From Avibacterium sp. 20-132 (lineage in GTDB: Bacteria; Pseudomonadota; Gammaproteobacteria; Enterobacterales; Pasteurellaceae): a stretch of DNA of 64,000 bases. Below the pieces are notes generated by a model. It made no database searches and was not told the DNA's origin. It saw only the letters and a list, made by a program, of their open reading frames with translations. The stretch covers positions 2,212,001 through 2,276,000 of the forward strand of contig NZ_CP091456.1 in NCBI RefSeq assembly GCF_023611925.1. Direction: 5' to 3'. This document shows, piece by piece, positions 58,702 through 64,000 of the stretch; position 1 is the first letter of the stretch; the number at the start of each line of letters is the position of its first letter. Made by a program: the position numbers and the translations under genes.

Positions 58702-60165
58702 ATGAATTTTACTTTTCAACAGATTATAGCATATCTCATCCCTGTTCTGATTTGGATTTTAACGATCTCCATTACAATGCGATTGGTGATTAAAAAACAA
58801 TCCGTTTCAGCTACCCTTTCTTGGTTGATGATAATTTATCTCGTCCCCGTGGTAGGCATTATCGCCTATTTAGTATTTGGCGAAGTGAAATTAGGGACAA
58901 AACGTGCAAAGGCATTTCGTTTACTTGCACCGAAATTTAATCAATGGTTTGGCGATTTTTCACAATGCCCGCAATTAATCAATCACCATAATACTCTGCT
59001 TTATCGCCCAATTTTTGACTTAGCTAAAAGTCGCTTAAATATTCCTTGTGTGCTGGGTAATGAACTGCATATTTTAGAGACGCCAGAAAGTATCATAAAA
59101 AGCATTATTGATGATATTCATCAAGCCAAACATAGCATCAATATGGTGTTTTATATTTGGTGGAATGGTGGCCTAGTGGAAGACGTGCAACACGCGCTAA
59201 TTGCTGCACAAAAGCGCGGCGTAACAGTGCGAATATTGCTTGATAGTGTAGGCAGTCGTCAATTTTTGAAAAGTAAACATTGCCGTGAAATGAAAGAAAG
59301 TGGCATTGAAATCACCGAAGCGCTACACGTTAATTTACTACGGATGTTTTTTAGTCGTATTGATTTACGCCAACACCGCAAAATTATAGTGATCGATAAT
59401 CAGATTGCTTATACAGGCAGTATGAATATGGTCGATCCGAAATATTTCAAACAAGACAGCCACGTTGGGCAATGGGTGGATATTATGGTGCGTATTAATG
59501 GTGCGGTGTCAGCGGTGCTAAATGGGCTGTATGCGTGGGATTGGCAAATTGAAAGTGATAAAGAAATCCCATTGCAGTTGCCTAATTGCCCTTTATTGCC
59601 CATAGAGAAGAACAATTCTCACGCCGTACAGATTCTTGCGACAGGCCCGGGATTTCCAGATGACTTAATGGCGCAATCTCTTTCTATTGCGATTTTCTCC
59701 GCGCGTAAAAGCATCACGATTACCTCGCCTTATTTTGTGCCAAGCCATAGCATTGCCGAAGCATTACGCATTGCGGCGTTACGCGGTATTGATGTGACGC
59801 TAATTCTGCCAAAGAAAAATGATTCTTTAATGGTTAGCTGGGCGAGCCGTACTTTCTTTGAAGATCTTCTTGCTGCTGGAGTAAAAATTTATCAATTTGA
59901 ACAAGGGCTATTACATACCAAAAGTGTGTTGATTGATAACCGCCTTGTCTTAGTCGGAACGGTAAATATGGATATGCGCAGTTTTATGTTAAATTTTGAA
60001 GTTACAATGGTAGTGGAAGATCAAACTTTTGCTAATGAAGTTACCCTCTTGCAAGAAAATTACCGCCAAAGTTCTTCATTATTAACCTATAAAGATTGGG
60101 TAAAACGTCCTGTTTATCAACGCGTTATCGAACGTTTATTTTTCTTATTCAGCCCACTTTTATAA
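58702..60165 (+). CDS. cls: Cardiolipin synthase
   Basis: Inner-membrane phospholipase-D-type enzyme that makes cardiolipin from phosphatidylglycerol. 487 residues. Two N-terminal membrane helices (IIAYLIPVLIWILTISITM and SWLMIIYLVPVVGIIAYLVF) are followed by two HKD motifs, HRKIIVID at about residue 225 and HTKSVLID at about 408. The length and two HKD sites fit ClsA. A histidine-phosphatase gene follows 36 bp later. Confidence 0.94.
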   Translation: MNFTFQQIIAYLIPVLIWILTISITMRLVIKKQSVSATLSWLMIIYLVPVVGIIAYLVFGEVKLGTKRAKAFRLLAPKFNQWFGDFSQCPQLINHHNTLLYRPIFDLAKSRLNIPCVLGNELHILETPESIIKSIIDDIHQAKHSINMVFYIWWNGGLVEDVQHALIAAQKRGVTVRILLDSVGSRQFLKSKHCREMKESGIEITEALHVNLLRMFFSRIDLRQHRKIIVIDNQIAYTGSMNMVDPKYFKQDSHVGQWVDIMVRINGAVSAVLNGLYAWDWQIESDKEIPLQLPNCPLLPIEKNNSHAVQILATGPGFPDDLMAQSLSIAIFSARKSITITSPYFVPSHSIAEALRIAALRGIDVTLILPKKNDSLMVSWASRTFFEDLLAAGVKIYQFEQGLLHTKSVLIDNRLVLVGTVNMDMRSFMLNFEVTMVVEDQTFANEVTLLQENYRQSSSLLTYKDWVKRPVYQRVIERLFFLFSPLL

Positions 60166-60201
60166 ATGCGGTATAAATTTTCAACGTTTTTAAGGATAGT
60201 A

Positions 60202-60843
60202 ATGAAAAAACAACTTACCTTTTATTTCGTCCGCCACGGACGTACCGTTTGGAACGAACAAGGTTTATTACAAGGACAAGGCGATTCACCACTGATCGCC
60301 GAAGGCATTGAAGGAGCAATGAAAACAGGCAAACACTTAGCCAATATTCCCTTTCTCGCTGCCTATTCAAGTGTGTTAAAACGCGCGATGGATACCGCAG
60401 AATACATTATTGGCAAACGAAATATTCCCTTTTTTCAACATAAAGGCTTAAATGAGCATAGCTTTGGCTCTTGGGAAGGGGCATTAGTGAGCCACCTTCG
60501 TCAAAACGAAGAATATCAACAAATGACCAAAGATCCCGCCAATTTTCAGGCTAAAAGCAATCGTGGCGAAACCTTTGGTGAATTAGCTAAACGGGCAATG
60601 AAAGCCATTGATGAAATTATTCAAGTACATCATTCAGGCAATATTTTGGTAGTTTCTCACGGTCATACACTACATTTATTGCTCGCTTTATTTGACGGCT
60701 CAACTTGGCAAAACCACCGTGAAAATCCGCGAGTAACACGCTTGGCAAATACCTCTATTAGCATTGTGCGTTATGAACAAGCTGAAAACGAAAGTGCGGG
60801 GCGTTTTGTGTTAGAAACGGTGAATAACACAGAGCATTTGTAA
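60202..60843 (+). CDS. Histidine phosphatase family protein (phosphoglycerate-mutase-like)
   Basis: 213 residues. The RHG motif is FYFVRHGRTVWNEQGLLQGQ, with the catalytic histidine at residue 12, and the second histidine is in ILVVSHGHTLHLLLALFDG. I start at the ATG at 60202 (MKKQLTFYF), with AAGGA upstream; the frame extends to 60166 over the end of cls. GpmB-like or a broad-specificity sugar-phosphate phosphatase; the substrate is not deducible. It is the last core-type gene before the AT-rich defence locus. Confidence 0.85.
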   Translation: MKKQLTFYFVRHGRTVWNEQGLLQGQGDSPLIAEGIEGAMKTGKHLANIPFLAAYSSVLKRAMDTAEYIIGKRNIPFFQHKGLNEHSFGSWEGALVSHLRQNEEYQQMTKDPANFQAKSNRGETFGELAKRAMKAIDEIIQVHHSGNILVVSHGHTLHLLLALFDGSTWQNHRENPRVTRLANTSISIVRYEQAENESAGRFVLETVNNTEHL

Positions 60844-60948
60844 TGCTTTATATTCCTACTCCAAAGAAGAGACTAATACAGTACAGCTCTAAAATTATAT
60901 TTCTAATTATCCTATTATTTTTATACCTTAGTAAGGTATTAATTGATG

Positions 60949-63423
60949 TTAAGTTAAAAAACCATTTTCAAATTTTTCTTCTATATTTAACCTTGGGGAT
61001 TCATCATTATTAAAATGATATATAAATCCATTATTATTTAGCATTTTAATAACAGATATGGCTTTTTCATCAGAATAATCAAATTCATATTTTAGAATGG
61101 AAAATATATGATATATTTCATTCCTAAGATCTGTAGAAAATATCCCAGGATCATCTGAACCAAGAACAATTATCATCGGGTAATCTCCTTCTATTTTTCT
61201 ATTGGCTATTCTTAGCCAACGAAATATATGATGATCTTTTATTGAATTATAAATACTAATTCTAACATTACTTGTAATTAAACTTTCAATAACAATTGAT
61301 TTTTCCGATATTAATTTTTGAACATATTGCTGACATTTAACAAGAAAATTCTCTGAGAAAAAATCAGAACATACTTTTTCTTTTTCTTCATACTTAGTAA
61401 ATGTTTTTACATTAAACCATCTATCTCTTAATAAACATAATGTATCTCTTGGGATTGATTTGACTAATGAAATCTCATATAGATCTAATATAACTTTATT
61501 TTCTAAAAAATTATTAACAATCTCAGGATTTAGATATCTATGCTCAAAGAAAGAGTCTAGTAATAAAAGATCTATTTTTTTACTATAGTCATCGCCAAAT
61601 ATTTCTTTAGAAAGCTTATTAATTTCATACTCAAGTTTATATATTTGAATATTATCAATATTCAAATCTATAGCTACTTTTCTAGCAAATAATAAATTCT
61701 CTAGCCATACTCCTTTAGATATAAATACCTCTCTAGGTATTGCTTTAATCCAATCACTAGGAATCAATCCTATTGCTGTAGCATGACCTATCCTATCACC
61801 TGATTTCAAGTTTAAGAAAACTATTGACTCATAAATAGCCCTAATGCCTGTCATTAAATGTTCAAAATCTTCTCCAACATGGTATGTAAATTTTTTAATA
61901 AAATTTCTTCTACAAAATCTATATAGAGGTGAGAAAACTTCTGGAGGAGTGTCCATCTCGTTAGCTGCAGCATCAACTCCAACAATAATATCTTTCAGTT
62001 TTGGATATTTAACAAAAGTCTCTTGTAAAATTTTCCCTTTTTCTATTAGATTTTCTCTAATATTTTTAAAATGATAATTCATATCAGGTATGCTAGATAT
62101 ATTATGATAATTCCATTTTCCTTTTATAAAGTGGCATACTAATCTAAGTTTTGGTCTATCTATTTTTAATACATTATCAATTAAACTATTTAAATCTTCT
62201 TTTTTTAATAAACCATTTTTCCCTCTAGCATATTTTACAAATCCATTTAAAATATTATAGATTAGAAACTCATTCTCCTCAATGCTGCTTTTAGGAGAGA
62301 ATCTACCTTCTATAGTTGCTAAATCAGAATTTTTAGAAAAAACATCTGGTCCATGTAATTGAATATATCTAATATAGTAATCTTTTTCATATCCTTCTCT
62401 AGCTCCAGAATCAGCAATTTTTTGGAAGTTATCAAATCCTTTTTTATATACAGATTGTAATGAAATGCTTCTAAAGCAATTCATAGAAACAATATATATC
62501 AAATAAAGTATGTCTAAAAGCTTTCTCCTAGACTCACTTTTTCCGGATTTAAGATAATTTATCGTTATCCTATGAAATTCTAACTCTTTAAAAAACAACT
62601 CTTCCTCTTCATAGTATTTAAAATTATCTTCAAAAAAAACATCGCAATAATCCTCATATTTTAATATTTTAATTAATAGATCGATTAGATGATTATACTC
62701 TTTGTTATAATTTTCATTAATAATTAAAATAATTAATTTTTTTATAGTCTTAGATATAACTAATAACTTATGGTATGACTTTGGGGTTTTTAGAAAATAA
62801 TCTGAACCATAATGTAAAAAAACATGTTCCTTATTAAAGTTTTCCTCTAAATAATTTCTTATAGAAGAGGGGGTTTCTAATGCCCAACTCCATAGTAATT
62901 CTGCTGTTGTTGTTCCATTTAAATGGATATGTAGATCATTAAGCCCTACATTATTAATATAATGTTCAACGATAGGTTTCTTAGGTGATAAAATTCCTCT
63001 AAGTCCTCTAATATTACTCCTATTATTGCATAGATTACATAGCGCTAATATTGGCAAAAATGAATGGTTAGACATCCAGTTTTGCCAATCAGAAAAAAGA
63101 TTTAACTTTATGGAAGAATCTTCTTCTACATAAAAATCTTTTACTTCATATAGTAAAGCTAGTGATAAACAGGTTCTCTTTTTATATTTGCAGCATAGAC
63201 TATCCCAATAACTAGAAAAAATTCTATCGTTAAAATTGGAGTAGATACTTAAATGGTTATAGGTGATGAACTTTATTTTATTGATGTTAATGCTTTCAAC
63301 TCCTCTCCCATCCAAAATATTAATGCTTTCAACTCTTCTCTCATCTAAAATATAACTTAATAGATCTTCACATAACGATTTATATACTAATTGTGATGAA
63401 AGAATAAAATCATTTATTAACAT
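60949..63423 (-). CDS. rdrB: Adenosine deaminase-domain protein, RdrB of a RADAR anti-phage system
   Basis: 824 residues. The metal-dependent deaminase site is split along the chain: His165-x-His167 in LNDLHIHLNGTT, His515/Glu518 in FTYHVGEDFEHLMTGIRAI, His547 in GDRIGHATAIGL and Asp757-Asp758 in VLGSDDPGIF. A long insertion separates the first motif from the rest. This layout and size match RdrB, which in published RADAR systems assembles into a large shell and deaminates adenosine/ATP. The N-terminus has Cys77-Cys78, Cys129-x2-Cys132 and a duplicated 11-residue unit. AGAGGAAG lies upstream of the ATG, 12 bp after the preceding gene. Strong AT bias and AGA/ATA codons suggest horizontal transfer. 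Ordinary purine salvage is unlikely given the size. Confidence 0.85.
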   Translation of the reverse strand: MLINDFILSSQLVYKSLCEDLLSYILDERRVESINILDGRGVESININKIKFITYNHLSIYSNFNDRIFSSYWDSLCCKYKKRTCLSLALLYEVKDFYVEEDSSIKLNLFSDWQNWMSNHSFLPILALCNLCNNRSNIRGLRGILSPKKPIVEHYINNVGLNDLHIHLNGTTTAELLWSWALETPSSIRNYLEENFNKEHVFLHYGSDYFLKTPKSYHKLLVISKTIKKLIILIINENYNKEYNHLIDLLIKILKYEDYCDVFFEDNFKYYEEEELFFKELEFHRITINYLKSGKSESRRKLLDILYLIYIVSMNCFRSISLQSVYKKGFDNFQKIADSGAREGYEKDYYIRYIQLHGPDVFSKNSDLATIEGRFSPKSSIEENEFLIYNILNGFVKYARGKNGLLKKEDLNSLIDNVLKIDRPKLRLVCHFIKGKWNYHNISSIPDMNYHFKNIRENLIEKGKILQETFVKYPKLKDIIVGVDAAANEMDTPPEVFSPLYRFCRRNFIKKFTYHVGEDFEHLMTGIRAIYESIVFLNLKSGDRIGHATAIGLIPSDWIKAIPREVFISKGVWLENLLFARKVAIDLNIDNIQIYKLEYEINKLSKEIFGDDYSKKIDLLLLDSFFEHRYLNPEIVNNFLENKVILDLYEISLVKSIPRDTLCLLRDRWFNVKTFTKYEEKEKVCSDFFSENFLVKCQQYVQKLISEKSIVIESLITSNVRISIYNSIKDHHIFRWLRIANRKIEGDYPMIIVLGSDDPGIFSTDLRNEIYHIFSILKYEFDYSDEKAISVIKMLNNNGFIYHFNNDESPRLNIEEKFENGFLT

Positions 63424-63435
63424 TTATTTCTTCCT

Positions 63436-64000
63436 CTACTTTTCGTTATACTTAAATGAAACTGGTGCTATCTTTGATATTGCCAGTTTTGATATTGGTG
63501 GTAAACCATCTTCATCAAGTTTATCAAGCTTTAGGTTATCTAAATAATTTTTCATCTTTTCATCTATCTTCAAGATTCCTTCAAGTATTTCATTTGCCAT
63601 TTTATCTTCTGTCATATATAAAAATGGATAAACTAATGGACAATTTACAATAGAATATGTTAATGGGAGATACTCTTTGAATTTATCTTCTAGCCTACTA
63701 TTTTTATCGTTATTTAGTACGTTTTTTATAGACTTTAAATTATTAATAAAATGCTTGATAGATGTTGATACATTACTAGCATTGGTCATAATATTAAAAA
63801 TATCATTGCTTCTATTATTAGAATAACGGCTCTCCTCTATTAATATAGAGTTGCAAACACCCCAAATAAATCTAGCAAATATTTCACTTGTATACAACCT
63901 TCTTTTTTTGTATTCTCTTTTTGCATTATCTGAAATATTATTTATAGAGTAGAATAATCTTGCCCATATCTTACCTAAACATAAAGATGAATAATTAAAT
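63436..64000 (-). CDS. rdrA: C-terminal part of probable RdrA (RADAR ATPase), 5' end outside window
   Basis: Open to the window end on the minus strand, about 187 residues visible, starting within NYSSLCLGKIWARLFYSIN and ending APVSFKYNEK. The TTG at 63897 is an internal leucine, not a start. The visible part is helical and Lys/Asn/Ile-rich, with no motif of its own. It is named by position: rdrA precedes rdrB in the same operon in RADAR loci, with the ATPase domain expected beyond the window. Stop-to-start spacing to rdrB is 12 bp. Confidence 0.6.
   Translation of the reverse strand, partial: FNYSSLCLGKIWARLFYSINNISDNAKREYKKRRLYTSEIFARFIWGVCNSILIEESRYSNNRSNDIFNIMTNASNVSTSIKHFINNLKSIKNVLNNDKNSRLEDKFKEYLPLTYSIVNCPLVYPFLYMTEDKMANEILEGILKIDEKMKNYLDNLKLDKLDEDGLPPISKLAISKIAPVSFKYNEK

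Follow-up and report, generated by a model that had tools for sequence, protein, structure and literature searches.

The closest described relative of the locus analysed here is the RADAR system of Escherichia coli P0304799.3 (EcRADAR; chains 8fnt, 8fnv, 8fnw, 8hr7 and others). In that system, a dodecamer of RdrB serves as the docking platform for heptamers of RdrA; ITP and dITP are produced from ATP and dATP by RdrB, infection sets the system off within minutes, and both active sites are required (PMC9994260). RADAR is described in the same text as rare, occurring in 270 of about 38,000 genomes, and PMC7699616 distinguishes stand-alone rdrAB, Csx27-associated rdrABC and SLATT-associated rdrABCD subtypes. 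The window, a 64,000-nucleotide stretch of the single-contig Avibacterium sp. 20-132 genome (C1:2212001-2276000 of 2,585,160 bp), carries at its edge what is very probably a stand-alone rdrAB anti-phage operon whose branch lies close to the E. coli P0304799.3 type and whose two genes arrived together, by horizontal transfer, in the interval from a phosphatase gene to bioD. This assignment draws on two genes with intact catalytic residues, a predicted RdrB monomer fold, conserved pairing, low guanine-plus-cytosine (GC) content and an empty site in congeners.

Analysis of the second gene places its 824-residue product in the RdrB family. The adenosine-deaminase motifs reported in the initial annotation are all present in this open reading frame (ORF), namely HIH (H165-H167), HVGED (515-519), GHATAIG (546-552) and GSDDPG (755-760). 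The histidine tetrad and catalytic glutamate, H165, H167, H515, H547 and E518, correspond to EcRdrB H152, H154, H498, H530 and E501, and these five zinc/catalytic positions are invariant in 84 of 84 rows compared. Around the deaminase core, the protein carries an N-terminal extension and the large insertions expected of RdrB, and its alignment with solved RdrB spans 735 residues, reaching well past the core. RdrB-family E-values in profile and sequence searches range from 1e-21 to 1e-94, RdrB profiles rank first, ahead of all other deaminase families, and structure prediction of the monomer yields the same fold as EcRdrB, upholding the identity first proposed. A Pfam scan matched A_deaminase (29.7 bits, cut-off 27) and nothing else. 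Two other deaminase types were rejected. Cad1, a CARF-adenosine deaminase, is a type III CRISPR effector; the PADLOC CARF-ADA model reached an E-value of only 0.0027, with the alignment confined to the core. Housekeeping adenosine deaminases measure about 330-400 residues and lack RdrB insertions, in contrast to the 824 residues and near-full-length RdrB alignment found here.

The gene upstream of rdrB was expected to be rdrA, and its frame indeed ends at 63436, in the same direction and 12 bp away. Genome sequence past the window edge was used to complete it, giving an intact 861-residue AAA+ ATPase that matches the PADLOC, NCBIfam and solved RdrA references. The two outcomes named in advance as refuting RADAR, an upstream gene without an ATPase domain and a profile placement of the deaminase outside RADAR, were both checked for and not obtained. 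Specifically, E-values are 2e-27 for PADLOC RdrA, 4.3e-47 for NCBIfam RdrA, under that model's curated cut-off, and 8.4e-44 for solved E. coli RdrA across residues 64-803 of 861, the sequence alignment thereby including the C-terminal region beyond the ATPase. Walker A (G79-K80-T81), Walker B (D218-D219), sensor 1 (D250) and sensor 2 (R360) correspond to EcRdrA G81 K82 T83, D221 D222, D253 and R377 as named in PMC9994260, R360 being placed by pairwise alignment with solved RdrA. Residues G79, K80, D218, D219 and R360 are invariant in 76 of 76 RdrA rows, T81 is kept in 71 and D250 in 70. When 26 RdrA rows are combined into a profile, it scores 1018 and 1014 bits against the E. coli RdrA chains; it also matches a second chain, 8fnu_A (E 6.7e-8), where the alignment is limited to the ATPase part.

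The locus shares with EcRADAR the rdrA-rdrB order, near-full-length alignment of both proteins, the zinc/catalytic and ATPase residues, and the RdrB monomer fold, as predicted here. The Pantoea plasmid pair of EcRADAR-like type (L004) and the window fall into one supported group in both trees described below. Identity to EcRADAR-like rows is about 30-33% for RdrB and 21-26% for RdrA, and RdrA is shorter, at 861 against 947 residues. A more distant relative, the NCBIfam-recognised pair of Aliivibrio pVSAL840 (L008), has the same two genes, order and catalytic residues, with about 20% identity to the window pair and a distant position in both trees; we infer that this type is the C. rodentium type.

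The two genes lie in tandem on one strand, separated by 12 bp, both ORFs are full-length, and AGGAG provides a good ribosome-binding site ahead of rdrA (Table 1). The stop codon of a bioD-like gene (Pfam AAA_26) lies 34 bp from the rdrA start, and a ROK-family regulator and asnS, the latter named by eye, are also found on this side. These genes occupy the upstream side, where the initial annotation had envisaged rdrC/rdrD; a search for these accessory genes beside rdrAB found none, and the extra genes of the rdrABC and rdrABCD subtypes are thus absent. Because the gaps of 34 bp on the bioD side and 105 bp on the phosphatase side leave no room for further genes, the locus is classed as stand-alone rdrAB. 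On the opposite flank, the cardiolipin synthase/phosphatase pair was correctly recognised, as phospholipase-D-family and histidine-phosphatase genes, both on the plus strand.

Table 1. Coordinates of the rdrAB locus and its flanking features (window positions unless stated otherwise)
Feature	Coordinates	Strand	Description
rdrB	60949..63423	-	824 aa, ATG start; adenosine deaminase-family; second gene of RADAR operon
rdrA, 3' end within window	63436..64000	-	last 187 codons + stop
rdrA, whole gene	L002:5437-8022 = genome C1:2275436-2278021	-	complete 861-aa ORF
rdrA-rdrB spacer	63424..63435	-	12 bp, operon-like
Spacer, convergent phosphatase gene to rdrB	60844..60948		105 bp; left junction of insertion
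Histidine phosphatase superfamily gene ("pgm-like")	60166..60843	+	flanking host gene, outside RADAR
Phospholipase-D-family, cardiolipin synthase-like gene	58702..60165	+	flanking host gene, outside RADAR

Pairing of the two genes is conserved among relatives. A plasmid collection holds RdrB matches in 7 records, with rdrA immediately upstream in all 7. A scan of genome contigs gave 141 relatives, of which the best 80 were kept (including L070, the same record as L005); an RdrA-model ORF lies upstream on the same strand in 73 of these 80 loci, and in the remaining 7 rdrB starts at most 1.6 kb from the edge of the stretch. In a few loci the two genes are less tightly paired or the pair is disrupted: the gaps in L088 and L020 measure 418 and 172 bp, respectively, and rdrA is split in L019. 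In the latter (Methylovulum psychrotolerans, L019:3895-6407), rdrA occupies separate ORFs and rdrB one long ORF, possibly an inactivated RADAR. At megablast sensitivity, the Pantoea-type pair is found in 4 of 5,426 complete E. coli genomes.

Using a quick method, trees were built from 83 RdrB and 75 RdrA rows and midpoint-rooted for drawing, leaving out L003 (a duplicate of the window genome), L070, short or 5'-open ORFs, and L078 because its rdrB is split. Both trees place the window, with support 100, in a five-row clade with Halomonas sp. SpR1 (L011), a Neisseriaceae metagenome-assembled genome (L013), Marinagarivorans algicola (L012) and Proteus cibi (L025). The terminal branch of the window row is long (1.22 and 1.13), and the letter make-up of this row deviates from that of the alignment. 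This clade nests within a larger supported group of 25 RdrB and 20 RdrA rows, whose further members are the E. coli-type L004 and rows from Serratia oryzae, methanotrophs and others. Since the same five rows group in both trees, rdrA and rdrB have probably travelled together. Identity of the window pair to the other four is 36-41% for RdrB and 32-36% for RdrA; their GC is also lower than that of their flanks, and their hosts and flanking genes differ from those of the window.

Recurrent accessory genes were sought among 465 neighbours within 3 kb of rdrAB, compared all-against-all; no family occurs in more than five loci, the commonest being transposase-like by eye. Individual loci carry further genes near the pair. 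In three Lachnospiraceae loci (L082:1919-3118, L085:1319-2686 and L087:1023-2366), a related gene of 399-455 aa with weak TPR matches lies directly upstream of rdrA and may be accessory; in L085, the rdrB end is also overlapped by a gene whose DUF4231 match is weak and falls short of the cut-off. In Rhizobium leguminosarum pRLN3 (L005:8475-13252), the stretch 0.9-5.7 kb downstream of rdrB contains genes annotated as adenylosuccinate synthetase, hypothetical protein and metallophosphoesterase; it is curious to find a purine enzyme close to a purine-nucleotide deaminase. In a Cetobacterium plasmid (L007:7738-8169), rdrB is followed after 72 bp by a VanZ-family gene of the same orientation.

The rdrAB pair looks imported. 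Its GC content is 26%, against 42% for bioD and 38.6% for the window, with steps at both ends. Among the 74 loci flanked by 4 kb or more, a set to which the window locus belongs, rdrAB GC lies below that of the flanks in 65, by more than 5 points in 39 and more than 10 in 15. The 9-base pattern AAGTGCGGT, which we take to be the Haemophilus-type uptake signal, occurs 37 times in the window (0.3 expected) and not at all in the rdrAB insert; as the window density predicts only about 3 per 5.2 kb, this absence is suggestive only. The abundance of the signal in the window supports the placement in Pasteurellaceae given in the initial annotation. Comparison with congeners reveals the empty site: in five of six (G001-G005), the phosphatase gene adjoins bioD across a spacer of some 0.12-0.14 kb, in which two uptake signals in inverted orientation enclose a T-rich stretch. 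In the window genome, the entire spacer is replaced, and similarity to the congeners stops at or beside both stop codons. The sixth congener (G006) carries a 278-aa formyl-transferase-family gene between the phosphatase gene and bioD.

This pattern suggests that the spacer was replaced via homologous recombination through the flanking genes. No terminal repeats spanning both junctions appear among the repeat families listed (20 of 27 direct, 25 of 81 inverted). Neither a defence island nor a mobile element is seen around the pair among the ORFs, named mostly by eye, in the final 12 kb of the window and the 12 kb past its edge. A search of 50,697 phage records gave no match, nor did IMG/VR with six peptide patterns, which reach close relatives only. 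The interval from the phosphatase gene to bioD was also considered as an insertion hotspot, as about 5.4 kb separates the two in G022 and G055 of another genus. No hotspot was shown: the G022 interval holds housekeeping genes by eye, and the comparison for G055 covered ORF sizes and order.

Other members of the clade occupy different surroundings. In Proteus cibi (L025 3129-11043), rdrAB lies between cheZ and flhB (by eye) in a flagellar/chemotaxis cluster; its GC is 27%, that of the surroundings about 40-42%, a further case of the two genes inserted among housekeeping genes. L013 has a transposase gene (Pfam HTH_Tnp_1; L013:10437-10745, minus strand) 0.9 kb downstream of rdrB, and L011 a transposase-like ORF by eye, with no Pfam match, upstream of rdrA (L011:3800-4090, plus strand); these are possible traces of how the pair moved. 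It is conceivable, though doubtful, that the five members form a separate RADAR lineage with re-tooled RdrA-RdrB and shell contacts, moving as an AT-rich two-gene unit between housekeeping genes; the transposase of L013 and the transposase-like ORF of L011 count against the bare two-gene unit. On this reading, the pair took the place of a spacer that held inverted uptake signals, in a host dense in such signals, as would be expected if it spread through natural transformation and recombination. Such a clade may assemble unlike the solved E. coli complex and sense other phages. No functional test of a clade member came to light, no search for one by name having been made.

Several features of the Avibacterium locus call for caution in its assignment to RADAR. 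Both proteins score under the curated NCBIfam equivalog cut-offs (161 against 600 and 107 against 800 bits). The control pair L004 likewise fails (128 against 600, 115 against 800), and its RdrB is an end-to-end match to solved E. coli RdrB at 1675 bits. Because a close relative of the solved type misses them too, these cut-offs are not a defining feature, and we read them as marking one subtype rather than all RADAR; the Halomonas pair L011 also fails (183 against 600, 143 against 800), whereas the Aliivibrio pair L008 passes (781 against 600, 970 against 800). Additionally, the EcRADAR contact charges (RdrB E595-E597; RdrA K150, E151 and R162), which E. coli RADAR needs for its RdrB shell and RdrA-RdrB contacts according to the E. 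coli work, are not kept here. These positions vary widely across the family, in a gappy and uncertain part of the alignment, and contacts have probably co-diverged. Moreover, the 34 bp ahead of rdrA show no conspicuous promoter, and a promoter scan across the region gave 48 candidates where chance alone predicts 46.7. The scan and the narrow gap would suit an operon that is intact and silent behind bioD, having no clear promoter of its own; this reading, compatible with RADAR identity, is rather improbable given the full-length ORFs, ribosome-binding site and intact active sites, and expression would need no more than bioD read-through or a weak AT-rich promoter. The analyses of this locus contain nothing that contradicts RADAR identity.

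As a RADAR operon, the pair would work by analogy with its published relatives in assembly, triggering, nucleotide deamination and defence. The RdrA ring ATPase would sense infection and dock onto the RdrB shell, where RdrB, as a zinc-dependent deaminase, would convert ATP and dATP to ITP and dITP. The nucleotide pool would thereby be poisoned and the phage stopped, probably with abortive infection. The original 2020 model instead has the effector edit RNA, the first published reading, made for the C. rodentium system as recounted in PMC9994260 and PMC7699616. We consider RNA editing unlikely here: in vitro, the E. coli relative acts on ATP and dATP and leaves RNA unconverted (PMC9994260), and window RdrB shares its active-site residues and, by prediction, its fold. 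As fold and catalytic residues are kept, the most reasonable expectation is that this locus uses the chemistry of its E. coli relative.

Searches of related genomes underline how rare the pair is in its host family. With the window protein, RdrB was found in 1 of 100 genomes, and with an eight-sequence profile at full-length score in 1 of 140 family genomes, in both cases the window's own. The profile also gave weak local matches in four genomes of one other genus (E 3e-7 to 9e-6, frames of 390-409 aa); the one that was read is a 395-aa adenosine deaminase by Pfam (E 1e-65), matching the RdrB profile over a short stretch at E 3e-7. An ordinary enlarged adenosine/AMP deaminase of purine salvage beside an unrelated ATPase would explain the above-cut-off A_deaminase match and a catalytic core common to housekeeping deaminases, and is nevertheless extremely improbable, as RdrB models outscore deaminase models, the solved-RdrB alignment exceeds the core, rdrA is kept beside rdrB in relatives, composition is foreign, the pair occurs in 1 of 140 family genomes, and the 395-aa deaminase just described reaches the RdrB profile only weakly.

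The Avibacterium pair is a known defence system, in a newly found representative within a small distinct branch. A literature search, with most subscription papers outside its reach, returned no paper joining RADAR with Pasteurellaceae or Avibacterium; the broader range suggested in the initial annotation is plausible, given also the single carrier among 140 genomes, and falls short of proof. The NCBIfam curated models miss all three scanned pairs outside their own subtype (window, L004 and L011), so RADAR counts based on those cut-offs alone would be too low. A divergent, complete and accessory-free RADAR with an empty site in its own genus is a further, uncluttered case in which to ask where in RdrA phage is sensed and which of the contacts are indispensable.
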